DNA from: Baffinella frigidus
Lineage: Eukaryota > Cryptophyceae > Cryptomonadales > Baffinellaceae
Assembly: GCA_026770585.1 (NCBI GenBank)
Contig: MU646605.1
Coordinates: 1 to 41,103, forward strand
Length of the DNA: 41,103 nt
Direction: 5' to 3'
In this document: piece after piece, positions 3,415 through 40,958 of the stretch
How the letters are laid out: every line of letters starts with the position of its first letter
How positions within the stretch are numbered: the first letter of the stretch is position 1
Program-made: the position numbers and the translations under genes
Notes under the pieces: generated by a model
The model's input: the letters and a program-made list of their open reading frames with translations, nothing else
Database searches by the model: none
What the model was told of the DNA's origin: nothing

Positions 3415-4520
3415 GGGGGGCAAGGCTGAGCAGGAGGCAGGAAGGGGCGGGGAGGCTAAGGCTGATGAGGAATGCGTGATATGCTGGGTGGGCGTCAGGA
3501 CGCACCTGGTCTGATCCTACACCCTACACCCTGAATCATAAACCCTTCACCCTAAACTGTAAACCCTAATCCCTTAACCCTAGACCCTGCACCCTGGACC
3601 CTGAACCCTCAACGCTAAACCCTGAACCCTTAACCGTTAAGCCTCAACCCTCAACCCTTAATCCTCAACCCTTAACCCTAAAACCATAAACATGAGATTC
3701 TAAACCCTGAACCCTAAACTTCCAACCCTTCATCAGCAACCAGAACCCCGAACCCCGAAACCCCAACCCAAACTCTCAACCCCTAACCCCTAACCCCAAA
3801 CCTCTACATCCGAAACCGGAAACTAGGTGTTCCCGTGTGGGCACATCGCGCTCTGCGAAACCTGCGCGGGTCTCATGGGGAAGTCACTTTTGGCCTGCCC
3901 GGTACGTACTCCCAGCTGCGTCTCAGTCTATTTAGGCCCACCAATTTGGTGAGCCCGGGCTCTTCCCCCCTCCAAAGATGACGGGTTTGCACCGCACACC
4001 CAGCAAGTCAACTTGAGAATAGTCCGTGAAGCCAAGTGCGGCAGCGGTTCGGCATAGAGCGATGGTTCTATCTCTGCCGCACTCGGCTTCACATCGCTCC
4101 CTGCGGAAACTGCGCAGACCTCATGGGCATGTCGCTTTGTGCCTGCCCGGTATTGTCACAGTAATTCCTCCTATTCAATTACTATGGACCTATCGAAAAG
4201 ACCCTTCATTTTATAAGACTGCCTGATCAAATGACCTGACTGTCCGGGCCTTACGGGCAAGTCGCTTTTTGCATGCTCGGTACATAGCTCCTTGCTCAAT
4301 CTGGCTTCTTCATTTTAATCGTTTTCACGCCAAAAGTTGACGAATTTTGGACCTTCCCGTGATTGACCCCCGCTGATGAGGCGTTGATGCTTTTGTTGGA
4401 GCGGGTTCTCGCATCACTCCACCCCCCCTTCAGGTGGGGACTTGACTCTCGACACCCCTTTTTCAGGTGTGCAATGTGGCGGCTACCGCCCCCTTTACCG
4501 TCAAAGTCTACCACCCCTGA
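3415..4520 (+). CDS. C3HC4 RING-finger protein (3' exons)
   Basis: Three exons join in phase 0: 3415-3508, 3827-3901 and 4467-4520. The first has an acidic, Gly-rich lead (KAEQEAGRGGEAKADEE) and the first zinc pair, CVIC. The second carries PCGH, LC and ETC. The third supplies the last ligand in CPVCN and ends at TGA 4518-4520. The full pattern is C-x2-C-x11-C-x-H-x3-C-x2-C-x10-C-x2-C, a C3HC4 RING at the extreme C-terminus, as in many small E3 ubiquitin ligases. The fold is clear; the ligase role is inferred from the family. The upstream start is uncertain (possible exon 657-793). The second exon has two decayed echoes downstream, at 4090-4152 and 4243-4284. The gene meets the coiled-coil gene tail to tail. 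Confidence 0.8.
3509..3826 (+). repeat. Intron made almost wholly of telomere-like repeat
   Basis: The intron begins GTCTGATCCTACACCCTACA and ends AAACCGGAAACTAG. Nearly everything between is degenerate CCCTAAA/CCCTGAA/CCCTCAA. Both flanking exons are fixed by the RING motif, so the intron limits are well supported. Confidence 0.85.
4027..4092. repeat. Imperfect hairpin
   Basis: GAAGCCAAGTGCGGCAG and CTGCCGCACTCGGCTTC form arms around about 30 bp, inside the last RING intron and directly before the first exon echo. Confidence 0.65.
4090..4152 (+). repeat. Echo 1 of the RING exon with its donor
   Basis: A diverged copy of the exon at 3827-3901, from CACATCGC through GCCTGCCCGGTA. It keeps the donor GT but translates to HIAPCGNCADLMGMSLCACP, losing ligand spacing, and no good acceptor precedes it. 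It is probably a non-functional local duplicate. Confidence 0.7.
4243..4284 (+). repeat. Echo 2 of the RING exon 3' edge
   Basis: A more diverged partial copy of the exon end and donor (GGGCAAGTCGCTTTTTGCAT then GCTCGGTACAT), in the same intron. Confidence 0.55.
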
Positions 4521-4540
4521 TCGAAGGCGAAAACGTCCCC

Positions 4541-4700
4541 CCCACACAGAAGGCTACGAAGGGATTTCCGGGCAGGAGATGCCCGAGTTTCCTTTACCTT
4601 ATCTTTAAGAACCCCCCTATTTCCCTACGGTTTGCCTATCGTAGGGTTCTAGGTCTTATTCGGGGGTTATTTCAAGTCCCTTCGAAGTCTACTGTGTGGT
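4541..4700. mobile_element. MITE family G, copy 1
   Basis: The ends CACACAGAAGGCTACGAAGG and CCTTCGAAGTCTACTGTGTG are imperfect inverted repeats. A second full-length relative lies at 38510-38672 and a fragment at about 21285-21365. It is non-coding and sits just after the RING stop codon. Confidence 0.65.
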
Positions 4701-4704
4701 TACA

Positions 4705-4972
4705 GAGAAAGGAAAGTGTGTGCATTACAGACCGAAACCAACATGGCTCGTCCTCGCATGATGCGTTGATGCTTTGCAGTACAGGAGTACCTCGCTCATA
4801 AGACAGCACCCCCCCCCCCAGGACCATCAATAGGGCCTTAGGCATGGGCCTACTGCAGGGTCCTAGGGGGGGGGGCGTTCCTATGAGCGAGGTACCCCTG
4901 TTGAGAGAAAGGCATGTGTGTGTATTACAGACCAGAACCAACAAGGCTCGTCCTCGCATGGTGCTTTGATGC
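4705..4972. repeat. About 70-bp direct repeats flanking a MITE
   Basis: 4705-4775 and 4903-4972 are close copies (GTGTGCATTACAGACC / GTGTGTATTACAGACC through CGTCCTCGCATG). They bracket the family A MITE at 4780-4901. Confidence 0.7.
4780..4901. mobile_element. Palindromic MITE family A, copy 1
   Basis: About 120 bp with ends TACAGGAGTACCTCGCTCAT and ATGAGCGAGGTACCCCTGT, a C-run/G-run pair and a centre rich in CCTAGG and TAGGGCC. The whole element can fold on itself. Many relatives occur in this window. Confidence 0.85.
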
Positions 4973-4974
4973 TT

Positions 4975-5078
4975 TATCCCTCAAGTGGCAAGCAGGCTCA
5001 CACACCCTACCGTAGGGCCCAAGGACCTGCCTAGAACCTCTTGGCGGTTAACTTTGACCGCCTCGCCACTTCAGGAAT
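4975..5078. mobile_element. MITE family B, copy 1
   Basis: It starts TATCCCTCAAGTGGC and ends near GCCACTTCAGG. Inside are CTACCGTAGGGCC and a short palindrome, GGCGGTTAACTTTGACCGCC. Its right end is more worn than in the other copies. Confidence 0.75.
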
Positions 5079-5132
5079 ATTACCTCTGTAATCTGTCTCT
5101 CGTAACCCTCGAGGACTTGCCGGGGCGCTCTC

Positions 5133-5200
5133 GAGGGTTCTCGAGGTCCTGTAGGTTCTGCGAGCTCCTCACATAGGTGGACACCGGAACTTGTTCTGCT
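5133..5200. repeat. Family F repeat fragment
   Basis: AGGTTCTGCGAGCTCCTCAC followed by ATAGGTGGACACCGGAAC is shared with 19770-19822, 20386-20443 (inverted) and 22504-22560. No complete element is defined here. Confidence 0.55.
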
Positions 5201-5407
5201 GAAAAGCCATACTTCCTTTCGGATCAAGCCCCCCGGTGCAGAGGATCGCAGCAGAAACCAGCTAAAGAGTATTCTCATCGGGCGTGAGGTATCCCCAACT
5301 GGGAATGCGCTCACACACAACAGCACCACAACGAGGGGTTGGTTCCGGTCAGTCACATTTACCTTTACTCCCATTCCACCACACTCAGAAAGGGCGCACA
5401 CAGCCAG

Positions 5408-7651: not shown

Positions 7652-7719
<68 letters not shown>

Positions 7720-7793
7720 AAGAGAGGGAGCGAGAGAGAGCGAGGGGGGGGGAAAGATACATGCATGAAGAGAGAGAGCGAGGGACATAGAGA

Positions 7794-7825
<32 letters not shown>

Positions 7826-9772
7826 CCTGGGCGTCAGCCTCCTTGTACGCCTTCGTCGCCTCGCGCAGCTGGTTCTCCAGTCGCTCGCGCGTGTCCTGGT
7901 TAAGGTTTATGGTTTAGGGTTTAGAGTTTAGGGTCTGGGTTTGGGGTTTGGGGTTTAGGGTTTAGGGTTAAGGGTTTCGGGTTTAGGGTTTCGGGTTTAG
8001 GGTTTGGGATTTGGGGTTCAGGGTTCAGGGTTCAGGGTTCAGGGTTCAGGTTTCAGGTTTCAGGTTTCAGGTTTCAGGTTTCAGGTTTCAGGTTTCAGGT
8101 TTCAGGGTTTCACGTTTCGGGTTTCAGGTTTCGAGCGCAGGGTTTAGGGCTTCGGATTTCGGGTTTCAGGTTTCGCGTTTCGGGTGCACGTGTCACTAGG
8201 CACCTGGAGGTCAGCGACGGCCTCGTCCTTCTTCTTGTTCGCAGCAGCCAGCATCGTCTGCAGCGCCAGCACCTCCGCGCGCGCCTCCTCCCCCTGTCAT
8301 GCAAACAGCTTCAGCCAGCGAGGCACTTGTTTGGAAGCGGCTCCGTAAAAAATTTAAATTAAAAAAATCTACTGCTTTGAAGTCGTGGAATTGCTTTTCA
8401 AATCGCGTTAGAGCTGACACGTCCCTCTTCAGCGAGTTCCCTCGCTAGCGTATGCTTTCGGCATTACCTGGATGCGCCACTCCTCCTCGGACCGCCGGCA
8501 CTGCCGCACCTCCACCTGCAGCGTGGCCCCGTGCTTCTCCGCGCGCTGCACCGCGGCCGTCTGCACCGCGAGGGACGCCTCCGCGTTCTGCAGCGCCATG
8601 CGCATCTCGGCCTGGTCGCCCTGGAGGCGGTCGCGCTCCGTCTGGAGGTCCTCGATCTTCTTATCCTTGGCGGCGATGTCCGCCTCGAGGCGCGTGCGGA
8701 GCGCGAGCACCTCCGTCTTCCAGCCCTGCTCTTTGTCCTGCCAGCCCTCGAGCGCGCGCTGCATCTCGCGCATACGCGACTTCTCCTCGAGCAGCTCCGC
8801 CTCGAGGCGCTGCACCGCCGCGGTCTGTACGGCCAGGGACGCCTCCGCGCTCTGCAGCGACTCGCGCATCATCTGCCACTCGTTCTGCAGCCGGTCCCTC
8901 TCCTGCTGCAGCCCGCGGATGCTCTGGGCCTTGGTGGACTCCCAGTGCTCGCTCTTGGCGCGCCACGCGACCAGCTCGGCCGCGTAGCTCTCGGCCTTGT
9001 TGCGCCAGTCGTCGCTCTCGCGCCGGCAGTCGGACGCCGCCTTCTCCGCGGAGATTGACCGCAGCTCCAGCTCCTCGAGGCGCTCGAGCGAGGCGCGCTG
9101 CTTGGCCAGCTGCTCGGCGTCGAGCATGCGAAGCCGGTTCACCTCCGCCAGCTTCGCCTCCAGCTCCAGCAGCTCCTGCTTCGCCACGCCGCCGCCGCCG
9201 TCTCCCCCGCCGCCGCGTCCGCGCAGCCGCAGGTTGTACTCCTCGGCTTTTGTGCGCCATTCTCCCTGGAGCTCCCTTGCGACGCGCAGTTCTTCGGTCA
9301 GCTGCGTGACTTGCGAGTTGAGCCGCTCGACCGTCTCGGTCTGCACCTTGAGGGACATCTCGCTCGCGCTCCAGCTCTGCTTCACCGTGCGCAGCTCCTC
9401 CACGCATGAGTCGTAGTCCTGATCAAGCGCTGCGGAACTGGCTTGATTCTCGCTCATCGCCATCGACGCGTCCGCCATGAGGTGCCGCACCGTCTGGAGC
9501 TCTGCCATGAGGATCGCCTGGCTCGCCGAACCCTCCCCGCGGCCGCCCCCTCCAGGCTGATCACCCCGCAGGTAGATCTGCACCTGATCCGTCTGCCGGT
9601 TGCCCCCCTCCCCGCCTTGCTTGCCACCTCCACCACCCTGGCGTTGTCCCCCATACTTGTGGTTGACCTGCTGCTCGACCTCGGCCAGCTGCTGCTGGAG
9701 CGTCGCCATACGCCCCGACGCGCCCGCGGTCCCGGCTCCGCTTCGCATCGTCTCCATGCCCCGGCCTGACAT
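5408..9772 (-). CDS. Large coiled-coil protein with two C-terminal HGG repeats
   Basis: Nine exons: 8468-9772, 8204-8293, 7827-7895, 7405-7608, 7211-7276, 7022-7060, 6686-6874, 6420-6500 and 5408-6265, giving 966 residues. Every intron is phase 0 and every exon keeps the frame. Residues 1-90 are low-complexity (Gln- then Gly-rich). About 90-680 are heptad-like coiled coil, with a recurring ASLAVQTAAVQR-type unit near the end of exon 1. After a Pro/Gly-rich linker, the tail has two related units at about 845-880 and 924-959: MPS..A..R..G...VADA....HGG...VA..LGL. I do not recognise a named family; a structural or scaffold role is inferred from the coiled coil only. The final exon-6 donor is ambiguous by 3 bp. 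The gene is divergent from the Canopy gene and shares its promoter. Most of its short introns are telomere-like repeat. Confidence 0.82.
6266..6419 (-). repeat. Telomere-like intron 8 of the coiled-coil gene
   Basis: The whole 154-bp intron, read on the coding strand, is CCCTAAA/CCCCAAA/CCCCACA repeat between GTGCGC and CCCAG. Confidence 0.85.
6501..6685 (-). repeat. Telomere-like intron 7 of the coiled-coil gene
   Basis: A 185-bp intron, GTTTCCCTCAACC... to ...CTAATCCAG on the coding strand, made of CCCTAAA with few changes. Confidence 0.88.
6875..7021 (-). repeat. Telomere-like intron 6 of the coiled-coil gene
   Basis: A 147-bp intron on the coding strand, GTACAACC to TTCGCAG, with CCCAAACC and a run of ACACCAA units. 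It is a more degenerate version of the same repeat. Confidence 0.8.
7061..7210 (-). repeat. Telomere-like intron 5 of the coiled-coil gene
   Basis: A 150-bp intron starting GTAAACCATACACACTAAAC and ending CTAAACCAG on the coding strand, with CCCTAAA throughout. Confidence 0.9.
7277..7404 (-). repeat. Telomere-like intron 4 of the coiled-coil gene
   Basis: A 128-bp intron whose donor is itself repeat sequence (GTAAACCCTAAACCC). It ends CCTACACCAG on the coding strand, and no non-repeat block is longer than about 25 bp. Confidence 0.92.
7609..7826 (-). repeat. Microsatellite intron 3 of the coiled-coil gene
   Basis: The intron is mostly (GA)n on the + strand, so (CT)n on the coding strand: GTCTCTC donor, CTCT tract, GTGTGTG-complement, CACAG acceptor. 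Confidence 0.88.
7896..8203 (-). repeat. Telomere-like intron 2 of the coiled-coil gene
   Basis: A 308-bp intron with CCCTAAA at the acceptor side and a run of CCTGAAA units toward the donor (coding strand). A single array has diverged into two variants. Confidence 0.88.
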
Positions 9773-9921: not shown

Positions 9922-12900
9922 ATGGGCGCAGTCCGCAGGATCCTGCTCGCGGTGCTCGTGGTCGTCCTTCTCGCCACGGGAACCGACGCCAAGAAGAAAC
10001 GCGTCAAAACCACCTTCAAGGAGCTGAAATGTTCCAGTTGTAAGGTCGTCTCCGCGAGCCCTGAAGATGATCCAAGCCTGGTGGCCTGGCAGTGCGTACT
10101 GGGGGATCTGGGCCGTTGGGTTGCGATTAGACCTGGGGATCTGCGGGGTTGGGCAGGGAAAGTTCTGGCTCTTGCCCGCCAGTGCAGAGCGCTGCCATCT
10201 CCTCCCCCGGGTGCCACTATTCGGCCCCGGGCACGGGGTGCTCTGCCTGAGCAAGCCCGTGCGGTTGCCTCCGGGAGGAGGGCCCAAGGGGATCTGCAGT
10301 TACCTATGGCAGACCACGATGTTGACCAAACGGAACCAGGATGCTGGAGTGGCGCTGGGTCCAGGTGGCCATGCGTCTGACTGCATCTTTCCTCTCCTTG
10401 GCTGCAGGCGGTGGCGGGAGAGTTCGGAGAAAAAATCGTTGAAAACTGGGACAAGAACAAGGGAAACACCATCCTCATCGGTCAGTTGCAGCCACCCGGC
10501 CACCCGGCCTCCGGATTCACGTGCTTTGCTCCTTTGCCCAGCCCCCGATTTGTACCAAACGTTACCTGCAATCGACAACTCCTCGTACAAATCCGACAGA
10601 CCCGAGGGATAAACATCTTTGCAAGAATTCGGAGGGTGGCGTGTGGAGAGGTTTGATGGTCGAGTGCCCGGGCATGATGGCGAGCCTGACAGAGCGTTTC
10701 ATATTCTTGCAATTCTTGCAACACACACACACACCCTCTCTCTCTCTCTCTCGCTCGCTCTCTCTCCATCCCTCCATCTCACTCTCACCCTCACGCCCCT
10801 CTCCCCCTCTCTCCCTGAGGCTCTCGCTCACGGTGGCAGAGAAGCGAAAGAAGAAGACGAAAGTGCTCTACCAAGAGAGCGAGCTGAGCATCCAGGAGGC
10901 AGTTGACCACACCTGCGATTCCGAGGACCACTTCGACAAGGTCCTAGTAAAGATTACTCAGGGCCCTAAGTGATTACTTAGGGCCCTAAGTAACATTAAT
11001 TAGGGCCCTAAGTAAATTTAATTAGGACATAATCCGAGCTGAGCTTCCGGGAGGCGGTTGACCACACCTGCGACTCCGAGGACCACTTCGACAAGGTCAT
11101 CACCCCTACACCCTACACTAATCCGGGGACATGTTTAATTTACAACAAAACGAATCTCTATGTGTTTATAGGAGTTTGAAGAAGATTAATTAAGGCCCTA
11201 AGTGAATTTAATTAGGGCAGAACCCGAGCTGAGCAACCGGGAGGCAGTCGACCACACCTGCGACTCCGAGGACCACTTCGACAAGGTTCTCACCCCTAAA
11301 CCCTACACCCTCAACTCGAGACCCGAATCCCGGAGCCCGGAACCCGGAACCCGGATCCCGGATCCCGAAAACTGAAACATGAAACACGAAACATGAAACA
11401 TGAAACTCGAAACCCGAAATCCGAAACCATAAACCATAAAACCTAAACCCTAAACCCTAAACCCTAAACCCTAAACCCTAAACCCTAAACCCTGGACCGT
11501 CAACCCCAAACCCTAGACCATGCACCCTAAACCACAAACCCCGAACCCTCAACCCTCAACCTTAAACCTAGACCCTGAACCTAGACCCCAAACTCTAAAC
11601 CGTAAACCGTATACCCCAAACCCCAAACCCTAAACCTTAAACCCTCAACCCCCAACCGCCCCTTCCACGTCAACCCGGTTCTTCCTAGTTGGCGAACACC
11701 GATTTCCCCAATGAGGGGGTCATTCAAATCGGACATAATAAGCGATCAGGCCTCTGAATTTCGAAACGCTCGTGGTTCCCGCAGTGCCCGGACTTGGTTC
11801 GTTCTCGACGATGCTGCACCACCCTGGAGGCAACATTAGGGTATTTTGAACCTCACAAAAGTCAACTCCCCTTGAGATGCGGCCGGATTCTGTACCCTAA
11901 GGTTGCCTCCAGGGTGGTTCCTCAAAGCGGCCATGTAACTCTGACTCGGTTACCACTCAAAAAGCTACGAGGCACGCCAGCCCCGGATATGCGGTATAAC
12001 GTGACCAACATTTGCTGACTTTTTGGCGTGCTTTCCAAGAAACAATCCGACAATTATGTTTAGGAAAGTTCCCCGTAGTGTTCTGAGTGGATCGGGGCGC
12101 CTCATTAAATACATCCAGATGCTCTGTGTACTGGCGCGTGTGTACGGATACCTGACCTGAATGTATTCAACGAGAAACACAAACTAACAGAGGCTGAGCG
12201 AGGTCATCTGGTAGTAGGCACGTTGCCAACAAACAGCCCCCGTGTCGTTGGTGTTTGGAGGCCAGCCACGCGTCAGGACGGTCCAGTGCAGGGACGTGGT
12301 ATGGAGTGGGTATGCCCCTCTCTATGGCAGTAAGAGAGCCTCGCGTCTCGCGGCTGAACCATGCCATTGGAGCCATTGGAGCTGGACATGGTGGTGTTGT
12401 TGGTGCTCGCAGGCCAGCCATTCGGCAGGACAGTCCAGTGCAGGGAATTGGTATGGACTTTAGGTGTTGGTATGCCCCTCTCGCGGACAGTACGCGCGCC
12501 TTGCGGCTCAACCATGCATGCCGAAAAACTGCTTCTGCAAATGAAGAATGGGAAGAAACAGGAAGCCGTCTTGAGGCTCATAACCTCTTGGTACGGCAGT
12601 TCACTAAAAGTCTCTTCCCTTGGTACGGCACAGTTGACTAAAAGTGTGTTCTCTTGGTACGGCAGTTCAACGTGACCAAGGTGGGGGGGCGGCCGGAGTA
12701 CACTAAGGTTGAGAAGTCTGTCGGGAAGAAGGAATACAAGAAGCAGCTTTCTGGTGAGGGGCGAAGAGCGTGGGGCGTAGGGCGTAGGGCGTAAGGCTTA
12801 GGGTCCGGGCCTTCGTTTTCGGGGCTTCGGGTGTGGGGCTTAGAGCTTCGGGCTTACGGTGTACGGTTTAGGACTACCCTACACCACACGTGGGGGTGGA

Positions 12901-16193: not shown

Positions 16194-16228
16194 CCGGGGG
16201 GGGCGCCGGGTGTCAGGACGGCCCCTAG

Positions 16229-16448: not shown

Positions 16449-16628
16449 GGGTGAAATTGGGAGAGAGTCTTGAGGTGAAAGTGAGCATGTACCAAGTCGG
16501 GTGAGTCCGCTGTTGAGGCAGAGCTGCAGAGAGAGAGGGGGTGAAATTGGGAGAGAGTCTTGAGGTGAAAGTGAGCATGTACCAAGTCGGGTGAGTCCGC
16601 TGTTGAGGCAGAGCTGCAGAGAGAGAGG
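16449..16628 (+). repeat. Near-perfect 90-bp tandem duplication
   Basis: The unit runs from GGTGAAATTGGGAGAGAGTC to CAGAGCTGCAGAGAGAGAGG and is present twice with no clear difference, so it is recent. A (G)n/(GA)n/(GACA)n microsatellite follows directly. Confidence 0.85.
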
Positions 16629-28900: not shown

Positions 28901-31900
28901 GAGACACACAGAGCCAGAGGGCCAGAGAGCCAGCGAAAACGCTTAGGTATGCTACCATGCCCGCAACGTGATCCCCCCCAAGGAGGGTATGCAGAATGTT
29001 GGGCGGGGCATTCTGGTTCGCGTCCGGCAGACCCCCGCCCCACCGACCTGTTTTGCGGGAAACCCTGGCCTTGAATTTTGGAAACCGGAGGGGTGGTCTC
29101 CGTGCGGGGGGGTGTAGGGTGTAGAGTGTAGGGTGTAGGGTGCAGGTCTGAGGGTGTAGTGAGCGGGACAAATACTGCGACAAGGTGGTGGGAGGGAGGC
29201 GCTCATGAGAATGCGTGGGAGGCAGAAGGATGGTCTCTGCTGGGCGCGGGTCAGCGCCGGGGTAGTCTTACCTGGTTTAGGGTTTAGGATTTAGGGTTGC
29301 AAGGATGGCCAGGCAGAAAGCGTGGCCAGCACCCCAGAGTTGCCTGAGAAAGTGATGGGAGGACGCTCATGATTTCTGAAGCATGAGGCGTCCATTACGC
29401 CTGTTTCCGACTTTTAATCTGGCCCCCCCTTGTGTCTCGCGGCAGGTGCTAGTCAACGACTGCATGGTCAACACTCTCGTCGCTGACGCGTCGGGCGAGG
29501 GCGAGGGCGGGCGGCTGCTGACAGGCGACACACGGGGGCTGGTCAAATGCTGGGACGTGCGGGTGCTGTCGTCACGGACAGATGGGGGGATGCAGGCGTG
29601 CGAGGTACGAGTCTCCGATGCTCACGCCACCATACAGCTACACACCCTGCACCCTTCACAACCTACAGTGTCTGGGGCGCCCTGCTCCTGAGCCGAGTGA
29701 TCTCTACCTGCTGACAAAGCCGTGCGGTCCACACGAGGCTACCAAAACACCCTGTTTAAATGTCGATTTTAGGCGGTTGGTACGGAGTTGGTCACGTGTC
29801 CCCCCGAAAAGCGGGGCGACACGTGACCAAACACATGCAAATTACCACACACGGCCTCATTTGTACAGCGTCCCGGGGTTTAAAAAGGGTGTTTGATCCG
29901 CCTGGTGTGGGTGATCAGGTGCTGATGCGGAACGCGTGATCAACCAACCTGGCCACCATACCTGCCCCTCCTGCCCCCTCCACCCATACCCCCCCCCCCT
30001 CCCCTCCTGGACAACCTTCTCATCTCTCTCTCTCTCTCTCTCTTTCTCTCTTGCTCTCTCTCTCTCTCTCTCTCTCTCCAGGTGCTGATGCGGAACGCGG
30101 ACGCCGGAAAACCCATCTCACACCTCGCGGTCTCGGCGCCGGGGAGTGCCGGGAGCGGGGGGGGGAGTGGGGGGGACGACCATTCGGTGCTTGCGGCGAA
30201 CTGCTACGATGATGTCATTCGCGTCTACGATCGCTCCACCGAGGTGCGTGCCACACCATCCCCTCCACTGAGCAGGCACCGGAACCTTCGATGATGTGTC
30301 CATCTAAACGATTCTGGTACAAATTGCAATTCTTTTCAGGGTAAGGGGCTTGAAATGATGCCCGGAAATCCGGGGAAGATAGAACCCGGGCCCTGCTCAG
30401 TGGCCCTCGTCCACTGACTACCCCCTCCGCGTCCCTGTTTTCTCGACCTGGTTGAGGGTTGAGGGTGTCGATTTCGTGAAACAAACGGTCCGGAAACGGT
30501 CTGGATGCGTGGATCGTCCTTTAAACTCCAAACCCTAAACCCTGCACCCTAAACCCTATCCCCCACACCCCACCTCCCAAACCCCGAAGCAGGTGGCAGC
30601 AAGAGGAGCGGCGTCCGGGCCTGATGGGGCGTGTGCCCCTCCCCCCTGGTTGGTTACAGCGGCTCTGCCAGACAGGAACCTGATGTGTGTAGGTTGGTGA
30701 CCACCAACTGAGTGGGGAGCTCCGACGTAGTCACCCACAACCTACCCAGTCAGACACCTAACGCGGCACGTTCCGCGCAGGCGGCAGCAACAGACGCGGC
30801 GCCCGGGCCAGAAGCACCGCGCGCGCCCGCGGAGGCCCTGCGCCTGACACATTCGCTCTACGGCCACAAGAACAAGAACCTCCCGATCCGCTCCAGCATC
30901 TTCCGAGGGGCCAAGTATTCCGCGCGCATGGCCGCTGCGGAGGGCCAGGTGCTAGCCGCACGAGAATGCTGGAGATGCCTATTTAAAACTGTTTGCTTTT
31001 ACAAGTGGGCATTTGTGTAGTAACTATCACGAGATTGGTCACGTAACTAGGCGATATTAGCCCAGTCACAATATTGTTCACCTTGTCCTGGTACAAATTC
31101 TTACAACCCCACATGTAAATAGGCCCCTCTTGCAACCTCGAGTGTTTCCTAGCGCTGCCTCACTGGGGTTGACGGGCTATCCTCAACTCGACAGTACACC
31201 CGGGTGTACGGTACGGGTGTACTACACCCGGGTGTACGGTACAAAGTCGTTGACGTTGGAAAGGAAACGAGCCGGGCGCACCGGATTAGTGAGTCCAAAA
31301 CGTACAGAGTCATAGCTAGAGGTTTGTCTCTGACGAGAGCCTCGCGTCTTGGATACCAGCATGGTCACCGTGTCAACTGGAAAGGTACTCTTCTTTGGGT
31401 GTTAAGAAGCCGCGCCCCGCACGGAAAACACTGAACCCCCCAACACTTAATTGTCTCACAACACTCCAACAGCGGTCTCTGGGGCGGGATGCGGCGCGCA
31501 ATCGGGGGAGCGGCGCGGAGCAGCAGGGTGATGAGAACAGCTACATGGCTGACTCTGGGCCCAAGATCGACCGGTATCACGTCCGCCCCTCCCCACGCGC
31601 CGATACCCTGTGTGTCAAATCGATGCGTCTGTCTGTTATTTATGCGCTGCTAAAAGATTTTTTGGGACGGATTGCGGGACACGTTGACGGATTTGCGGGG
31701 GCGTTGGCTTTGAAAACAGGTCGATTTGATACACAGGCTATCGTCGCGTGGCCTCTGGTAGGATGGGCAATGGCTCCAATCGCATTTCCAATGCTGTAAT
31801 AATGGCAGGAACCACGTGGGGAATTGCCCTCTGTTTCTAGACGCTGCTTCGGGTACTCATGAGAAGGGGGGGGGGGCACGTTGTGTGGAGAGGGGGTGCG

Positions 31901-33636
31901 ATTAACGATGCGTGGTGATAAAGAGGCATTCACACGTGAGGCATCAACAGTGTCTAGCACCAGACAAGCTTGACGATGGTGCGTGCTATGTTTTGTGAAA
32001 GGGGCTGGCTGGCCGCCGGGTTGGGGTTCAGGTTTCAGGGTTCAGGGTTTAGGTTTGAGGGTTTGGGCTAGACCCCATCTTGCGGTTCTTTTAGACGTTA
32101 CCGCTCAGGTTGTGAGTTGGCTGTTGGGTAGGACGGTGTTGCAAGTGTGGTGACGTGCGCGCCCTTCCCGAAACTCACCGTATCCCTTAAGTGGCGAGTA
32201 GGTTCATACGTCCTACGGTAGGGCCCTAGGACCTGCCTAGGGCGAGTTAGGGCGATCAATCGCCCGTCCGCCACTTACGGGACAAGCCGGCTTGCCTGAA
32301 CCATGACCGTGTCCTGTGGGGGTTTCAGGTCGTTGCTGCTGGCGACAGGGTCAGCAGACACGGCGTGCTACGGTGGCGGTGGCAGGTCCTCGGTTGTGAG
32401 TTGGGTAGGAAGGTGGTGCACTCACGTGTGGTGACACGCGCTGACCCCCCAGTTGAGTAACCCTGTGATGCTTGCAGGTTGTGGGAGTTTTGAAACTCTG
32501 CCTGCGTGCCGAAACCCTGACCGTGTTGTGTGGGGGTGTCAGGTCGTTGCTGCTGGCGACAGGGTCAGCAGACAAGCCGTTGACTGAACCGGGTCCGGTG
32601 GCGGTGTCAGGTCCTTGGTTGTTTGTTGGGTAGGAAGGTGGTGCACTGACGTGTGGCGACGTGCGCCCCGCCGCGCGCGACCCTCCACTTGAGTAACCCT
32701 GTGATGCTTGCAGGTCGTTGCTGCTGGCGACAGGAACAGGTTGGCGCTGAAGATGCTGATCAATGCGGGGGGCAAGCAGCGGATCCTGACTGACAGCCGC
32801 GTCTTGTGGGGGTGTCAGGTCCTTGCTGCTGGCGACAGGGTCGGCCGACAAGGCGTGCTACGTCTTCGACGTTGCGCCGGGCCAGGTCCCATTGCCCTAG
32901 CCATTGCCCTAGCTAACGGAACCGGGCTGGAGTTTCTAGATCGCATCCCCCCAGGTAACACTGTTGGCTGAACCGGGCTGGTGTTTCTAGATCACATTCA
33001 CCCAGTTAGCAGGTTACATCCCGCCCGCCGGAATGCACTGCCAGCCAGAAAATTTCACCTTAAGTAAACTGGCTGATCCTCGGCAGTAAGTTGCGAGGAA
33101 CCTTGCTCCCAGAGCAGGCATTTGACTTGAGGTTCTGGTTGTCGTCAGGGCAGTTGACTTGGGGTTAAATGTTCTGGCTTGACTTGGGGTAAAATGTTAT
33201 GGTGAGGCTGTCGCGGTCACAGGGCGTTCTGCTGCTCAGAGTACCGCTTCCCTTGTATGGTTTCGGCGTCACGAGTGGAATCAACTGGTTGTAGAAGAAA
33301 AACGTCGTTTGTTACGGATCGAAACCAACGCAGTCACCATGTTTTCCTTTCCGGGAAGGCCTTGTACGCCGGGTGTTGCTTGCGGGGTGCAGGTTGGGGC
33401 CCAAACCCCCAACCCCCAACCCTCAACCCTCAACCCTCAACCCTCAACCTTCAACCCTCAATCCTCAACCCTCAACCCTCAAATCTAAACCGCAAACCCT
33501 GAAGCAGGTCGGGGCGCTAGTGCAGCGGCTCGACGGGCACTCGGACCGCGTCTACGCAACCTCCTGGCATCCCTCCGAGCCTGTCCTCGCCACAGCGTCC
33601 GGCGACTTCACAATCAAGCTCTGGAGCTGCAAGTAG
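25979..33636 (+). CDS. WD40 propeller protein with N-terminal coiled coil
   Basis: Exons: 25979-26020, 26097 to about 26289, about 26399-26514, 26786-26894, 27103-27203, 27746-27844, an exon cut by the gap ending 28588, 29446-29604, 30082-30243, 30781-30948, 31473-31573, 32819-32885 and 33508-33636 (TAG). Phases fit from 26786 onward. The exon 2/3 junction is uncertain: CAG|GT at 26304 would break the frame. The N-terminus has a coiled coil (EENRKLRSRLEKLNNEHREL). WD units follow: LEGHSGAVYAVAFS...SGSFDKSVRIWSL, VSSSYDKTIKVWDV, LTGDTRGLVKCWDV, ANCYDDVIRVYD, LATGSADKACYVFDV and LDGHSDRVYATSWHP...GDFTIKLWSC. GHKNKNLPIRSS lies between the last blades. At least one blade is damaged by the gap. 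WD40 proteins act as scaffolds; the partner is unknown and I do not assign a family. Several exon edges are echoed in introns. AATAAA lies at 33721. Confidence 0.8.
26895..27102 (+). repeat. Telomere-like intron of the WD40 gene
   Basis: The intron is almost wholly CCCTAGA/CCCTGAA/CCCTCAA repeat, C-rich in sense, between GTGCTGCC and GTCTGGCAG. Here the main variant is CCCTAGA. Confidence 0.88.
27237..27385. mobile_element. Foldback/MITE in a WD40 intron
   Basis: AGATTTAATTTCGGGAATGT and TCCTT pair with AAGGA, ACAGTTCCCGAAATTAAATCT. About 150 bp, AT-rich inside. I see only one copy in this window. Confidence 0.75.
27850..28434. other. Assembly gap behind a poly-C run
   Basis: A C-run starting at 27849 leads into 559 N (27876-28434). 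The following bases are already coding (QTSKLAGTFEVGG), so the gap hides the rest of an intron and the 5' part of a WD40 exon. Confidence 0.97.
28615..28900 (+). repeat. Purine-rich GA/GACA microsatellites and echo of the WD40 exon donor
   Basis: (GA)n tracts flank 28711-28745, where GGGAGTGCTGCGGTGAGTGT and CCTGCCTGGATGGAGAGA copy the exon end and donor at 28577-28613 (GGGAGCGCTGCG|GTGAGG...). The copied donor GTGAGT is a better consensus than the original. Confidence 0.8.
29788..29832. repeat. Hairpin with CACGTG core arms
   Basis: TTGGTCACGTGTC and GACACGTGACCAA pair around CCCCCGAAAAGCGGGGC. In a WD40 intron. Confidence 0.8.
29916..29936 (+). repeat. Echo of a WD40 exon 5' edge
   Basis: CAGGTGCTGATGCGGAACGC plus G is identical to the junction at 30079-30099, 160 bp downstream. 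The copy then runs straight to TGATCAACC, an in-frame stop. Confidence 0.85.
30026..30078 (+). repeat. (CT)n microsatellite before an acceptor
   Basis: A CT-rich run ending in CCAG at the exon beginning 30082; it doubles as a polypyrimidine tract. Confidence 0.85.
30589..30621 (+). repeat. Echo of the WD40 exon at 30781
   Basis: GCAGGTGGCAGCAAGAGGAG then CGGCGTCCGGGCC resembles GCAG|GCGGCAGCAACAGACG then CGGCGCCCGGGCC, including the acceptor. Confidence 0.72.
32181..32284. mobile_element. MITE family B, copy 5
   Basis: TATCCCTTAAGTGGCGAGTA to CGCCACTTACGGGA, with the core GGTAGGGCCCTAGGACCTG. In a WD40 intron. Confidence 0.82.
32311..32740 (+). repeat. Three echoes of the WD40 exon at 32819
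   Basis: GTGGGGGT(T/G)TCAGGTC(G)TTGCTGCTGGCGACAGGGTC recurs from 32317, 32530 and 32710, each copying the acceptor and first 15-45 bases of the exon at 32819. Between the first two copies a further roughly 130-bp block (GGGTAGGAAGGTGGTGCACT, GTAACCCTGTGATGCTTGCA) is also duplicated, at 32385-32480 and 32625-32713. Confidence 0.85.
33400..33507 (+). repeat. Telomere-like tract before the last WD40 exon
   Basis: CCCTCAA units, C-rich in sense, running up to the acceptor GAAGCAG. Confidence 0.88.
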
Positions 33637-33699
33637 GACTGGGGCGACCACTTTACACTTTCACCACTTGGGGATTTGACCACTTTGGTCTTGGTTGTG

Positions 33700-34084
33700 C
33701 GTGGCGGCCGTGTCGGGAGTAATAAACGTGTCTCGAATACAACACCGGTGAATGTGTGGGTGTCGTGCAGCTGAATACCCCCCCAAGTAGCTCTGGGGGG
33801 TGTCGTGTGCGTGCGTGGCGGCCGTGTCGGGAGTAATGAACGTCTCGCTCGGCGCTTCACCATCAAGCTCTGGAGCTGCAAGTAGCCCCGGGGCGTGTCG
33901 TGTGCGTACGTGGCTGTGGGTATCTAGGCTCTACGGGTATCTAAGGACGCAAGGTTATGAGGACGCCACTCAGGGCTCCGAAGCAGATTCACTTAGATCC
34001 TAAATATCTGCAGTGGCGGCCGTGTCGGGAGTAATAAACGTCGTGTAAGCACTTCGTCATCACGCTCTGGAGCTGCAAGTAGCC
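33700..34084 (+). repeat. Repeated 3' end of the WD40 gene
   Basis: GGCGGCCGTGTCGGGAGTAA with TAAACG occurs near 33703 and 34014, and with TGAACG near 33817. The last coding bases and stop, ATCAAGCTCTGGAGCTGCAA plus GTAG, are copied at 33853-33885 and (with ATCACG) at 34050-34082. Confidence 0.88.
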
Positions 34085-34085
34085 C

Positions 34086-34499: not shown

Positions 34500-34623
34500 T
34501 GTGTGGGTGTCTTGCAGCAGAATGCCCCCGGGAAGGGCTCGTCACGTCGCACACGCCAAGCGTGCTGGAGCTTCTCGAAATGTGGAAAGCTCACACCGAA
34601 TCAGATCGTGGCGGACCGCGAAT

Positions 34624-35094: not shown

Positions 35095-35218
35095 CAGCTA
35101 CATTCCCGGCGCGGCGTGTGGATGCGAGCGCGCTTCTCCACACGGCGAGACGGTCTCAATATGCCTAGGGCCCTATGGTGGTCCTAAGGGGGGTGCGCGT
35201 TCTTATGAGCGAGGCACC
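35095..35218 (-). repeat. Echo of the kinase stop region, then a half MITE A
   Basis: 35099-35157 (CTACATTCCCGGCGCGGCGT, ACACGGCGAGACGG) is a diverged copy of 35258-35312, the 3' end of the last kinase exon including its stop. 35160-35218 is the right half of a family A MITE (ATGCCTAGGGCCCTATGGTG to ATGAGCGAGGCACCT). Confidence 0.75.
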
Positions 35219-35256
35219 TATCTACTGCTCACCTATCTAAATTTACGGAGAAGTAT

Positions 35257-38200
35257 CTACATTTCCGGCGCGGCGTCTGGATGGGGCCGGGCGTCTCGGT
35301 ACGGCGAAACGGCATTCGGGCCCCAGAAGTGGTCGAGTAACCGATCGGGCGTCCACCGCTTGTCCGGGTCGATCTGCGAACATAACAGTTGAGTAACCTG
35401 GTTTAGTTGAGTAATACAGGAAAGTTGAGTACCCCTGTAGAGCCCTACGGCATGGCTTTGCCTAGGCCCTCCGGGTCGATCAGCAAAAATGAGAGTTGAG
35501 TAACCCTGTTTAGGTAACGTCCCAGTTGAGTGACCCGGTTTAGTACACGGCCCAGTTGGGTAACCCGGGTTAGTCAACACCCACGATCGAGAGGCAAGGC
35601 TGCACGTGCGGCCTCTTCGCACGCAGGAGCGCAACGCGGGGCCAAAGTTCACTCTGGGCCAGAACATTTCACCTAAGTTAAGTCCCCCTGAAAACCAGCG
35701 CCGTAAGTCAAATGCTTGCTGCCAAAGCAGGTCCATCTCAACGAAATGGCAACTTACTGCCGATGATTAGCTTTTTTTGACGCAGGGTGAAACATCCTGG
35801 CTGGCAGTGAAGTGCGTGACGCCCTAGGTTCATCCGGGAACAAGTATTTTTCTTTTAACAAAATCTACACGCAAATTACTACACAATTGCTTCGGACGTG
35901 ACCCGTTGTGTAGTAATTTCCGTTGCCAGCTTTTGATAGAAAAATACTTGTTCCCGGATTAAAGTGGAGTAGACCTGGAGCATCGGGGTGAGAAGCTCCT
36001 TGAGCTGCCGCCCTCCCATGAAAGACTCCACCTGCAACGCCGCGCATAAGTCAACTCACCCGCCATAAGTCATCCGACCACCCACGGGGGTTGTCCTGGG
36101 TCGGTCAAAAGCTGCGGGCTGGGGTCAACTTTCGAGGCCAGGCTGGTCGGTTGACTTATGGGTGGTCAGTTGACTTATGCGCGGCCTTGCGTGCAACCCG
36201 CGGGAGAAGCGCGGGTGGTTTTGGAAGGCGGGCCACGAGCAGCCTGGCGCTCCCTCCCACTCAAGGTCGCAAATGTCAGTATTTCAAAACCGGGGATCCT
36301 TTATAAGTGGGGCGGTGTTTGGTAATTCATCCAACATGAGAATGTTAGATACGTGACCAAAGCCGCCCGTGACTGGTACACATTCAACAATCCTACTATT
36401 CACATAGTCCTATCTCTAGCCTCGAGTGGTGGTCTTACCAGTTCGACTGACGTCGTTTGAGTGCACAAACTGTTGGTGACTTGTCAGTACTGAAACTGAA
36501 GCCTTTTGAGTTGTTGCGCTGGAGATAGTTTTCTGTCCCTGAACGCACGATGTGTTTGAAAAGATGGTTATCAGTTGTTGAATCCAATACCTTTCTGGCA
36601 ACGCGGTTCAGGGAGGGTGTGGGGCGGGAGGGAGCATTGTTTTATGTCGCATAACTCAAGCCATTTTTCAAAAGATGGTTTTCAGCTGTTGAACTCTAGA
36701 CCTTTCTGGCAACGCGGTTCAGGGAGGGTGTGGGGCGGGAAGGAGCACAGACCCGCGAGAGAGGCAGGACCAGGTGCACCTTCTCCTCTTCTGCCCGCCC
36801 CTGCGACCGCCGCCGCCATTCAGGGCAAACGTAATCCTTTCTCCCTCGGAAGACAAACGTAATCCTTTCTTCCTCGGAAGGCAAACGTAATCCTTTCTTC
36901 ATCTTCGAAGATCACAATTGCCGGAGAATCACAATCGGCACGCATGGTGCCGAATCTGCATCATCAGTGATACAGGGTGCTGAGAATGGCGGCGCGCCTC
37001 GTGTACGTGCAGTGGCACGTGAAGACTGAGAAGCAGCACGGATAAGCGCAGCTGTCGAAGCGCAGTCGAACTCTGACGCCAAAAAAACGAGGCTGAATTA
37101 TGCCGCCAAAAACCGCGCGCCGTGCAAGCGTGCACGGCGCGCGTCTTGTTTCACGAGTAACTGGGGGGGCAAGAGCAAGATTTCATGGCGGTTAGGTCCT
37201 AGTCGAACACGATCGACACTGCCAGGCAGTCATCCCGCGTGAGGCAGGAGCTAGGTCGGACCTGCGCGAGCTCGGGCCAGCGGAGGGTTCCGTCGCGATC
37301 GAAGAGGCTCTTGACAACACCCAGGTCCTCAGGGATCTTGCGTATCAGCCTTCGCGGCACCGGGCCGCAGAGTCGCTCGATCATTGCCAGGTGCTGCGTC
37401 ACAACTTCGTAGTTAGTAATTTGATCGCATTAGTCGCGAGAGTGATAAAGAAGAAGAAGAAGACGACAAAGACGAAGAAGGCACCGGCCCGCAGAGTCGC
37501 TCGATCATTGCCAGATGCTGCGAATCCAGGTCAAACGTCAGAGGAAACCTCAAGTTCCCCAACAATTTCAGGAATGGATCAAACTCCTTTAAAAAATCTG
37601 AAATTCTTAAACTTCTGTGTTTTCCGACTAGAATTCACTTTCGCACAACCACTCGATCATTGCCAGGTGCTGCATTCCGCTGCCCGTCTTCTAGCTCTGT
37701 CTCGCTCGGGTTGACCGACTATTCTCAAGTTGACATGCTGGTTTTGCGGTACTAATTCGTCAAATTTTAGGTAAAAACAGCCCTTGCTCACCAAATTGGT
37801 GGGCCCAAATAGACTGAGCCAGAGCTGGTCGTGCGCCTAGCTGGGTCGGGGGGGGGTTGATGGCTCCCTCGTGGGCGGTGGGTTCAGGAGTTGGGTGGAT
37901 TTCGGGAGTTGGGTTGTGTTCAGGAGGTGGGTTGGGTTCAGCGGGTGGGCGAGGCCCAAGAGGCGGGTTACGTTCAGGATGTGGGCCAGGTGCAGCGCAC
38001 TGCACTTCATTCTTGTCTCCGGATTGCACCGGACAGGAGAGGGGTCGGGGGGGGAGAGTGCTGGCGTCCTCGTGGGTGTTGGATTCTGGAGTTGGTGGGT
38101 GTTGGGTTCTGGGGTTGATGGGTGTTGGGTTCTCGAGTTGAGTTCAGGATTCAGCGGGATCTGAGCAGTTTCGTGCGTGTCGTGGGTTAGGTTCAGGGGG

Positions 38201-40958
38201 TAGGTTCAGGAGGTGGGTTCAGGAGGTGGGTTCAGGATGTGGGTTCAGGATGTTGATTCAGGATGTGGGTTCAGGATGTGGGTTGAGGACCTGAGCAGTG
38301 TCGTGCGTATCGAAGGTGAGGCGGGTCTCGGTAAGCTCCAGCAGGATGCACCCCAGGCTCCACAGGTCGCATGGGTAGGACCACTGTTGTCAGGGTTCAG
38401 GTTTTAGGGTTTAAGGTTTCGGGTATAGATTTTTGGGGTTTAGGGTTTAGGGTTTAGGGGAGAGTTGGCCAGGAGCGCCTTTTCCTGGGATTGTCAAATC
38501 GCGTTAGCCACAAAGCGGGCTACGAAGGAATTTTCGGCCCAAATCGGGCCACCTTTCCGTTAACTTATCCGTGGGAATCCCCCCTATGTCCCAACGGATT
38601 GCCATTCGCAGGGTCCTAGGTCTTATCGCTTATGGGTTATTGAAAATTCCTTCGAAGTCCGCTGTGTGACAGGTTGAAAGCTGCGCATCGCCTCTCGACG
38701 GATACGACCATTGGAGCGCGGGGCATCAGGCGAGCGACTGCGTGAGATGCGTGAGAACGTCTAGCTCCGCCTGCGTTTTATTCTGGCTCGTCATTAAAAA
38801 AAACACGAAGAACAGTAATCCGGTACAAAAGGGCGAATAGAAAGCCTTTATGCCGAGCGATAGTAAAACGCAGACAGCGCTAGAATGTCTCGCACGCTCC
38901 TGCCCGAGCGACAGATCTACCAGCCCCGGGGCCCACGTCCATTGTGTTCCTCCTGCCGCCTCTGCCACCCACGATTCGCCTTCCCGGTGTGTACCAGAGG
39001 TATCACGATTCCCAGTAATGACATGGCGTGGGACCTAATTGTGTAGTAAATTGCGTTGCCAGAAAGAAATATTTGTAATCGTTTCCGCTGTTGAAGTTCT
39101 ACCGCTAGGCTCGGCAGGGGGAGGGGACCGTGTGTTCATGCTTCAGGGTTAGGGTTTAGGGTTTGGGTTGAGGGTTCGGGTTGAGGTTCAGGTTGAGGAC
39201 TAGGGATTAGGGATTAGGGATTAAGGATTCGGGATCAGGGTTAGGGAGTGGCAGACCTTGAGGCCGAGAACAACCTCTGGCGCCCGGTAGTGCCGCGTTT
39301 GAATCACCTGGTGCACGGGGGTCAGGGGTCAACCGCGGGACATGCGTTCAGAAAAAATGTTCTAGAAAACTGAACATGATTTCTTCAGAAAAAAACATTC
39401 GAGTCGCGATCCCAGAGACACCGCATGGTGCGGAATCTCCACCACGTGCTTTGCAGACAGCCTGTCACACTGACCGCTGGTCAAAATTGGCAATGGTCAA
39501 AATGAGGAGGGAGGGTGGAAAGATTACCTTTGAGTGAACATCGTCTTCCCAGGTTGCGCCTCCAAAATCGATGAGTTTCACGTCCACGTCCCCATCCAAC
39601 GTCTGCTCACCACCAAGACCTCTATTAGAGATCGGTGAATACGCATCTATCCTCTCAAAAGGGTGGATAAGCTTCTGTTAGATAGCGGCGAATAACCCGG
39701 GTGCAAATAACACACCCGAGATTGATGAGGTTCACGTCCACGTCCCCATCCAACGTCTGCTCCACCAAGGCAGGTACCATGTATCAGGAAACTTTCCGCA
39801 GTGTAAAAGTCGTAACACGTTGTTAAACGCGTTTCGACTGGCGTGGTACTAAGGAAATCCGAAATGATTTCCGGGAGTGTCACGTCCACGCCCCCCTGCT
39901 CACCACCAAGGCAAGTATCCTCTATTAGAGAACGGTGAATGAGTCTGCTGGCGTATCCTCGAGAGAACCGTGGATGAATCTTCTGGTGCATCATGTGTTA
40001 GAGAACGGTGAATAAGTCAACTGCAGGTAACAGGGCGGAGCAGCAGGACCGCGCTCGATAATCTCGCCAGGAGCGAGCCAGAACTTGACTGTGAAGGAAA
40101 ATGCTCGAGTGGCGTCAGGCGGAACGCAGGAGCAATCCACCACCAAAGGGCGTGGGTGGGGTGCAACTGGGGCAGTCCGTATGCGCAACGCGGATAAGGT
40201 GCCACACTCACTAAAAGTCGGGATTCAGCTCTGGAGTGTAGCACGCGTCAAAACAATCGAGGTGGTACTTCACTGGCAGCTCAGGAGTATAGTACAACTC
40301 CAAAAGTGTGACGGTACTACAATGTTAGTAGCTGGAAGGTGCGGCGGGAGTACCATGCCCGGCTTCGAGAGAAGGACGTTCTCCGTCTTGAGGTCAGCGT
40401 GCACCAGCTGCACCGATCGCAGAAACGCCAGCGCCTCCAAGAGGCGCTTCGCAACAGCCCAGATGGTTTTCAAGGAGACCATCCTCCGCGTCTGCCGGAA
40501 GCGCCGCAGTTGGTGGTACACCGAATCCCCGAGAAGCTCTGCACCGCCAAGAATCGGTTAGGCGGTGCACGCATAGGCTGATCACACGCCGCCCCTCTAC
40601 TCAACGCGTCTGGAGTAGTTACCCGCCTGGTACAAATCCTGCACGGATCAGTCAACTGCGGTGCACGCGCTCCGCCAACAACACATTGCAGATGGGGCGC
40701 TAGGTGGGGTCTCGGGACGTGCAACCATGCAGCAACGCACAAGTAATCCACCACCAAAGGAAGTGGAGTGCGTTGAACTGGGGCGGGCGGTATGGGCGAC
40801 GCGAGTGAGGTGCCACACTCGGCAAAAGTCGTGAGTCAGCGGGGGGGGGGCGCACCAGTGACGATGCAGAGGTGGCCTTTGTAGTGGAAGTACTTGTAGA
40901 GCTGGACGCAGTTGAGGCCCTTGCGGTCCAGGTCCGCGAGAGAGTTGAGGATCGAGAC
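35257..40958 (-). CDS. CLK/LAMMER-type protein kinase (5' part outside window)
   Basis: Exons on the - strand: 40856-40958, 40354-40538, tentatively 40032-40088, 39528-39602, 39257-39307, 38291-38383, 37262-37393, 35975-36031 and 35257-35373 (TAG). About 289 residues; phases agree throughout. Visible kinase motifs in order: YFHYKGHLCIVTELLG (hinge region), LVHADLKTENVLL (catalytic loop, HAD in place of HRD as HTD is in CLKs), LIDFGGATW (DFG), TRHYRAPEVVLGL (APE), WSYPCDLWSLGCILLEL, THDTAQHLAMIERLCGP (LAMMER-like signature, with Q and I at usual E and M) and IDPDKRWTPDRLLDHFWG near the end. The glycine loop and VAIK lysine lie beyond the right edge. The family phosphorylates SR splicing factors; that role is inferred. 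Unusually, four exons have diverged copies of their edges in adjoining introns. The exon 40032-40088 (SSSGSLLARLSSA...) is phase-compatible but weak. Confidence 0.85.
35470..35508 (-). repeat. Echo of the last kinase exon acceptor
   Basis: TCCGGGTCGATCAGCAAAAA and GAGTTGAGTAACCCTG copies 35362-35400, which spans the real acceptor. Further GTTGAGTAAC(C/T) words recur at 35390-35570. Confidence 0.72.
35830..35957. mobile_element. Foldback related to MITE M by its core
   Basis: CATCCGGGAACAAGTATTTT / AAAATACTTGTTCCCGGAT as ends, and AATTACTACACAA / TTGTGTAGTAATT inside. In a kinase intron, 18 bp from exon 35975-36031. Confidence 0.85.
36040..36185. repeat. Inverted repeat CCGCGCATAAGTCAACT
   Basis: CCGCGCATAAGTCAACT...CCATAAGTCATCCGACCACC pairs with GGTTGACTTATGGGTGGTC and AGTTGACTTATGCGCGG. 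It starts a few bases from the acceptor of kinase exon 35975-36031. Confidence 0.8.
36555..36750 (+). repeat. Direct repeat of about 85 bp
   Basis: AAAAGATGGTTATCAGTTGT... and AAAAGATGGTTTTCAGCTGT..., both running to AACGCGGTTCAGGGAGGGTG and TGGGGCGGGA(G/A)GGAGCA, about 115 bp apart; followed by three CAAACGTAATCCTTTCT units at 36825-36900. Confidence 0.85.
37481..37676 (-). repeat. Two echoes of a kinase exon acceptor
   Basis: GCACCGGCCCGCAGAGTCGC and TCGATCATTGCCAGATGCTG at 37481-37520, and CTCGATCATTGCCAGGTGCT at 37652-37671, copy the exon edge and acceptor at 37356-37396 (exon 37262-37393). Confidence 0.85.
37855..38290 (+). repeat. GGTTCAGGAGGTGGGTT-type minisatellite
   Basis: Imperfect units of about 14-16 bp (GTGGGTTCAGGATG and variants) in the kinase intron; densest at 38190-38286. 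At 38159-38182 CTGAGCAGTTTCGTGCGTGT is an echo of the exon 38291-38383 donor edge (CTGAGCAGTGTCGTGCGTAT). Confidence 0.78.
38392..38459 (-). repeat. Telomere-like patch beside a kinase acceptor
   Basis: GGGTTCAGGTTTTAGGGTTT... on +, so C-rich in sense for the kinase, directly next to the acceptor at 38384-38386. Confidence 0.85.
38510..38672. mobile_element. MITE family G, copy 2
   Basis: CACAAAGCGGGCTACGAAGG to CCTTCGAAGTCCGCTGTGTG; the interior shares CCCCCCTATGTCCC... and GGGTCCTAGGTCTTAT with 4541-4700. Confidence 0.75.
38760..38887. mobile_element. MITE family E, copy 2
   Basis: TCTAGCTCCGCCTGCGTTTT to AAAACGCAGACAGCGCTAGA; shares TTCTGGCTCGTC and GGGCGAATAGAAAGCC with 22219-22348. Confidence 0.82.
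39137..39244 (-). repeat. Telomere-like tract beside a kinase donor
   Basis: GGGTTTAGGG, GGGTTGAGG and GGGATTAGGGATTA units on + (C-rich in kinase sense), ending 13 bp from the donor of exon 39257-39307. Confidence 0.87.
39608..40022 (-). repeat. Two echoes of the kinase DFG exon, with TATTAGAG repeats
   Basis: GGTTCACGTCCACGTCCCCA and TCCAACGTCTGCTCCACCAA at 39729-39769, and TGTCACGTCCACGCCCCCCT with GCTCACCACCAAGG at 39878-39911, copy the 5' edge and acceptor of exon 39528-39602. CTATTAGAGA(A/T)CGGTGAAT words recur at 39622, 39923 and 39997. Confidence 0.85.
40131..40840 (-). repeat. Diverged direct repeat of about 95 bp on both sides of a kinase exon
   Basis: AATCCACCACCAAAGG, CAACTGGGGC, GTATG and GGTGCCACACTC occur in the same order at 40134-40210 and 40746-40820. 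The right copy ends beside exon 40856-40958. Confidence 0.75.

Follow-up and report, generated by a model that had tools for sequence, protein, structure and literature searches.

The literature found on local repeats at exon borders consists of single cases and of related mechanisms. In the RNA-dependent RNA polymerase gene of potato, as the source outlines it, a tandem duplication crosses an intron-exon border: it takes in both intronic and exonic sequence, and of the two exonic copies the upstream one becomes intronic (PMC4974935). The account of repair-mediated duplications in vertebrates lists 4 partial exon/intron donors beside 278 intronic ones; these duplications are local (at most 619 bases), can include splice sites and partial exons, and decay without constraint (PMC2671141). 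The fill-in of staggered double-strand breaks is reported to produce small tandem duplications at engineered breaks in mouse cells, which are direct, of the size of the overhang (tens of bases) and made by end joining (PMC8355091). Finally, introners, for example those of Amoebophrya, are described as families of repeated introns bearing direct repeats of 3-5 nt and inverted repeats of 8-20 nt, which overlap exon/intron borders in a protist (PMC7789003).

A 41,103-nt stretch of cryptophyte DNA, called here the window, holds repeats that resemble each of these systems in part. They are diverged copies of one exon end with its splice site, or of the coding end of a gene, lying in nearby non-coding DNA; they are called echoes below. 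Whereas the potato duplication is presented as a single case that created a new intron (PMC4974935), the echoes occur in many genes, can form arrays and give no sign of new introns as their usual outcome. Compared with the vertebrate duplications as tabulated (PMC2671141), exon borders dominate the repeats found here and the copies keep one orientation. Fill-in duplications, in the cited account, are known from engineered breaks (PMC8355091), whereas for the echoes we infer the mechanism. Unlike introners as that source describes them (PMC7789003), each echo belongs to a single exon and measures tens of bases. Since they typically lie 100-929 bases from the border, the model of intron gain by tandem duplication of an exon segment that contains AGGT misses most of them. 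No earlier report of such a pattern in a cryptophyte was found in a search of titles and abstracts drawn mostly from outside the subscription journals.

Echoes in the window

The sequence-only reading had listed copies of exon edges in several genes, and the list was checked by comparison of the window with itself and exon by exon. Nearly all of the copies were recovered, and four of the five modelled genes of the window carry local direct copies of exon edges. The RING exon, placed by its frame and splice signals at 3827-3901 on the plus strand, is the original of two downstream echoes of its last 60 bases and donor site. The first, at 4090-4152, matches 3842-3904 (81% over 63 bases, E 4e-12), and the second, at 4249-4282, matches the first (82% over 34 bases, E 2e-4); they correspond to the copies proposed near 4090 and 4243. 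The Canopy gene, also on the plus strand, was modelled as one frame of five exons from homology and splice signals. The last 61 bases of its exon 3 (10840-10940) recur downstream, near the expected 11036 and 11221, at 11035-11098 (94% over 64 bases, in a tandem unit of about 155 bases) and at 11225-11290 (92% over 66 bases). The other Canopy copies are less clear. The one proposed for exon 4 is a real 19-base repeat in a short tandem array (12585-12669) that abuts the acceptor, of which only about 4 bases are exonic; those proposed for exon 5, which starts at 14333, are two marginal upstream echoes within 13777-13916, of 29 bases each (79-83%, E 1e-4 and 1e-3). The echo-rich 1.7-kb intron 3 (10940-12666) is apparently absent in a relative, in which two predicted proteins of possibly non-genomic source (P0001 and P0002) run directly from exon 3 into exon 4.

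On the minus strand, the copy of porin exon 4 expected at 23100 was found as an exon-like pair, 23101-23155 and 23271-23325 (93% over 55 bases, E 3e-20), either member of which may be the exon. The porin copy announced at 22570 is just a 12-base match at chance level (E 0.04). The reading had overlooked an inverted copy of the start of the porin exon at 22651-22784, which lies at 23782-23837 (91% over 56 bases). The coiled-coil gene was said to have no exon-edge echo, and none appeared in the self-comparison; it carries an internal coding repeat at 8543-8911 (78% over 106 bases, shift 264). In the window as a whole, Rfam gave no match at its gathering threshold.

The WD40 gene was modelled on the plus strand with eleven exons, the first two of which were corrected later; as the joined frame is not clean, it was used by coordinates only. 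All its proposed copies (28711, 29916, 30589 and 32317/32530/32710) were recovered. The exon end at 28577-28588 recurs downstream with the start of its intron (28577-28613 against 28709-28745, 89% over 37 bases, only 12 of them exonic). Echoes of exon starts lie upstream of the exons beginning at 30082 (29916-29936, identical to 30079-30099 at 21/21 bases), at 30781 (30589-30624, 83% over 36 bases against 30777-30812) and at 32819, which has three (32307-32372, 32529-32580 and 32711-32734). The kinase gene, on the minus strand, was modelled with eight exons in one open frame from the first modelled exon to the stop, and self-comparison of the window found its copies again at 35470, 37481/37652, 38159 and 39729/39878. 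Upstream echoes belong to the starts of exon 3 (39528-39602; echoes at 39721-39769, 92% over 51 bases, and 39875-39940, 73% over 75), of exon 6 (37262-37393; echoes at 37480-37522, 95% over 43 bases, and 37652-37673, 22/22) and of exon 8 (35257-35373; echo at 35470-35513, 84% over 44 bases, with 11 exonic bases), and a downstream echo belongs to the end of exon 5 (38291-38383; echo at 38157-38191, 83% over 35 bases).

Echoes of the stop-codon ends of these two genes had been overlooked. That of the WD40 gene (33600-33646) has two downstream echoes, at 33850-33895 (89% over 47 bases) and 34051-34082 (88% over 32), and that of the kinase gene (35257-35312) has one, downstream on the minus strand at 35098-35153 (80% over 56 bases). 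Since ends of genes at a stop codon are copied too, the border that matters is that between coding and non-coding sequence.

Prevalence and geometry in kinesin genes

The survey was extended beyond the window, in the eukaryotic assembly of 382 Mb, through kinesin genes chosen from 45 Pfam matches by that match alone, regardless of echoes: ten loci, and later three more. Their 94 exons, placed by a purpose-written spliced alignment to a kinesin-derived profile (some exon limits may be wrong), make 120 with the 26 exons of the window. Matches were required to reach E <= 1e-3 and to lie within 1.5 kb of the exon; those overlapping the query exon, holding fewer than 15 exonic bases or made of simple repeats (TRF period up to 8) were dropped before counting. 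Twenty stretches of 10 kb picked by place, 16 of which were wholly N, were excluded from the echo counts, and four loci (L016, L018, L025 and L026) served in the repeat census only. Among other gene families in the assembly, a myosin search gave four matches and phycoerythrin alpha eleven, five of the latter within about 75 kb on contig C225, with a sixth nearby there. In 14 control genomes phycoerythrin alpha had no match, and the eleven matches mark the assembly as that of a cryptophyte alga.

Exon-edge echoes are real in this assembly and common in the sample. They occur in 9 of the 13 kinesin genes (7/10 in the first batch and 2/3 in the second), and of the 162 internal exon edges of these genes, 36 are matched by a copy that touches only the edge in question. 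Introns are short in three of the four kinesin genes without echoes (L029, L036 and L040; means of 187-329 bases); L028, with an intron of 1.7 kb, is the exception. Over the 120 exons, 107 non-coding direct matches, and 6 more to exonic partners, stand against 4 inverted matches at the same threshold. This imbalance, together with the extension to kinesin genes, bears out the earlier claim that chance cannot explain the recurrence across unrelated genes. As a chance control, exons were also compared with other kinesin loci (21 direct and 0 inverted matches), but this control was spoiled by kinesin paralogy and dropped.

The position of the copies follows simple rules. When the 7 matches that touch both edges and the 6 exonic partners are left out, copies touching only the exon start lie upstream of the exon in 48/48 cases and copies touching only the exon end lie downstream in 39/40, the sole exception (exon 9 of L030) probably being a copy that the aligner mistook for an exon. 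Full exon copies are uncommon, 100 of the 107 direct copies lacking one or both exon edges, and only 12 of these 100 touch neither edge, against 27.6 expected under random placement. The median distance is 254 bases (range 100-929). The adjacent intron or flank holds 84 of the 88 single-edge copies, and in all eight introns with both kinds the donor copies precede the acceptor copies. The arrangement is that expected of tandem duplication across a border between coding and non-coding sequence: direct orientation, a functional copy on the exon side and a stranded copy in the adjacent non-coding DNA.

Whether the border itself is special is less easily read from the counts. In the first batch, the seven kinesin genes with echoes carry them at 44 of 104 edges, if outer edges and matches to both edges are included, and 19 repeat families confined to introns were found in 27 kb, which gives a ratio of 11 per base in favour of edges. 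Local repeats, with both members taken into account, cover 0.34-0.38 of the sequence near exon edges and much the same deep in introns (0.34-0.37), but the figure drops to 0.12 beyond 60 bases into an exon. When tandem duplication is simulated without bias, the observed geometry and the scarcity of exon-middle copies are reproduced, and no targeting is therefore required for them. Under neutral decay, the simulation gives ratios of edge to intron-only copies of 2.2-3.4 in one set and 3.6-5.2 in another; in the latter set, the observed values are reached if events confined to introns occur at 0.03-0.1 of the rate for edges, an unexplained edge excess of ten- to thirtyfold. The most realistic model, in which exonic copies decay more slowly and gaps in introns come near the rate measured in ten hand-picked pairs, gives 1.7-5.7 without bias. 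Its best fit sets the rate of intron-only events to about 0.3 of that at edges, which leaves an excess of about threefold. This leftover excess, threefold or more, may be real, or introns may turn over faster than modelled.

Arrays, decay and spacers

A single edge can be copied up to five times. The four copies of L032 exon 6 share their exon-side break, at an AACC common with telomere-like repeats; in other arrays, the breaks differ from copy to copy and neither flank is common to them, which shows that one border was copied more than once. Plain tandem units with long intron parts are found at L032 exon 3 (212 bases, 97%), in L030 (503 bases, 86%) and in L037 (335 bases, 88%), whereas exon 7 of L032 and exon 7 of L033 resemble inserted patches. 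Flank homology was measured by anchored extension in the 32 pairs whose exonic parts are 93% identical or more: in 20 of them it stops less than 20 bases beyond the splice site, and in 12 it reaches more than 20 bases into the intron. In the window, 16449-16626 is a perfect 90-base tandem duplication (88/88 matching), evidently very recent.

Substitutions were scored in the pairs of at least 25 bases, the VDAC gene and the WD40 exons without a set frame being left out. The exon-copy differences fall 56, 88 and 251 times on codon positions 1, 2 and 3, with position 3 at 3.5 times the frequency of positions 1 and 2; they comprise 231 silent changes, 162 residue changes and 2 stops, and there are 21 gap openings besides. 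At edges with at least two copies, changes private to the copies are spread 21/28/43 over the codon positions and those private to the exons 0/2/15. As judged from these substitutions, the exon is constrained and the copy little or not at all. The third-position excess that the copies still show may come from faster mutation at third positions, from weak or past constraint, or from wrong polarity due to serial copying. CpG mutability was rejected as its source, the non-CpG rate at position 3 being itself higher (0.225 against 0.140). Divergence between copy and exon is homogeneous within 8 of the 9 genes tested; in L032 it is heterogeneous (0-16%, p 0.002).

Several spacers between exon and copy contain sequence from small dispersed families that have inverted ends, as introners or MITEs would, with no clear enrichment over control windows. 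A 122-base palindromic element at 4780-4901, one of about a dozen in the window, has a 72-base direct repeat on either side (4704-4775 and 4904-4975, 89%), unusually long for a target-site duplication. The stretches 3914-4044 and 37697-37828 are copies, in opposite orientation, of a dispersed family of small elements whose ends are close to AGCTCTGTCTCAG; relatives are found in L018, L031, L033, L034 and L035. Telomeric repair was also considered as a link and rejected, since telomere-like sequence makes up 0.129 of the spacers, 0.107 at exon-side breaks and 0.114 of control intron windows.

Origin and meaning of the echoes

The best explanation, to which we give a probability of roughly 0.55, is that echoes are small local, mostly tandem duplications that were filtered by selection and then decayed. 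Such duplications would arise when a break with staggered ends is filled in and repaired, or from a backward switch of template. Within an exon, they would break the frame and be lost. Across an exon start, a duplication would leave a good exon behind and strand a partial copy upstream; across an exon end or a stop codon, it would strand the copy downstream. The survivors would be the border-spanning and the intron-only duplications, the stranded copies would then decay, and repeated events at one border would build arrays and lengthen the intron. For this reading count the direction and adjacency of the copies, the donor-first order, the tandem units, the common break in L032, the decay, the match with simulation and the short introns of echo-free genes. 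The scarcity of exon-middle copies counts likewise, as random duplications kept only if an intact exon is left predict it, and copies of stop-codon ends fit such a filter too. Against it count the loss of homology within 20 bases of the splice site in 20/32 pairs, where a simple tandem unit should hold more intron, the 11-fold edge excess set beside 1.7-5.7 in unbiased simulation, a position-3 excess beyond plain neutral decay unless third positions mutate faster, the homogeneous divergence in 8/9 genes, with no obvious mix of ages, and the existence of four inverted copies.

The sequence-only reading had suggested copying biased to exon borders, and a process tied to splice sites and to the ends of genes is a possible but considerably less probable source. 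Such a process, for example staggered breakage of exon borders in connection with transcription or splicing, would copy a border patch of about 20-110 bases into the same intron. The rarity of exon-middle copies and the edge excess, 11-fold per base over intron-only families and still threefold to thirtyfold after simulation, speak for it, as do young pairs whose homology breaks off sharply at the splice site and the repeated copying of one border with different breaks. However, selection acting on random duplications explains the rules of direction and edge by itself and simulation without targeting yields the same geometry, stop-codon ends are copied though they have no splice sites, tandem units with long intron parts are present, and decay of introns faster than modelled would erase the excess. 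It is similarly doubtful, though conceivable, that border-centred duplication, perhaps coupled to transcription or splicing, repeatedly places a border patch in the same intron and is a main source of new intron sequence. That diverged haplotypes or strains were placed end to end in the assembly and joined where their exons agree appears improbable. Such an artefact would yield the edges, the direction, the third-position bias and the poor intron homology, and would suit the homogeneous divergence in 8/9 genes; the assembly has many N runs, and a stretch inside an L030 echo (reverse strand 4079-4098), which we take to resemble an Illumina adapter, indicates that the assembly is imperfect there. 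Yet there are up to five distinct copies per edge, copies within arrays share exon-side breaks, L030, L032, L033, L035 and L037 are free of N, Canopy is a single locus in the assembly, L032 has heterogeneous divergence, and the copies hold gaps and stops.

Two further explanations seem very unlikely. In one, exon copy and echo are the two halves of an unusually long target-site duplication made by small inverted-repeat elements. Some spacers do contain dispersed-family members with inverted ends, the element at 4780-4901 lies between direct repeats, and the copied patches have sharp ends. Dispersed repeats, however, make up 0.129 of the spacers against 0.096 of control windows (in a sample of about 128 kb), by which transposon target duplication was rejected as a general cause; moreover, element ends often fail to meet the copies and tandem arrays without spacer occur. 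The other, hardly more credible, makes echoes alternative exon parts or decoy splice sites under selection, and the reading had indeed proposed that selection keeps copies near splice sites. The third-position excess, the part that decay does not fully explain, favours it, as do nearly all-silent pairs (L037 exon 3, 6/6; L033 exon 5, 10/11) and the fewer indels in copies than in flanks among ten hand-picked pairs. The copies are nevertheless truncated on one side and hold gaps and a few stops, 164 of the 395 scored substitutions alter a residue or create a stop, and changes private to the copies are far more even over codon positions than those private to exons; nor do most echoes form a complete copy in an open frame with a splice site at each end, as expected of mutually exclusive or alternative exons.

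How introns gain sequence and grow longer is poorly known because the traces usually fade. The exon border acts here as a conserved tag that makes it possible to spot duplications in the neighbouring intron, to tell their orientation and to date them roughly; rates of intron growth, signatures of break repair and selection against exon damage thereby become measurable from one genome. Gene finders are warned as well: decoys in the form of decayed exon ends that include splice sites are frequent in this genome. The border excess, if real, would suggest that exon borders are linked with the breakage or copying of DNA in a way not recognised before. In many introns of this cryptophyte, the decayed copies of a gene's own exon edges form a readable record of intron growth, most likely by small local duplications.
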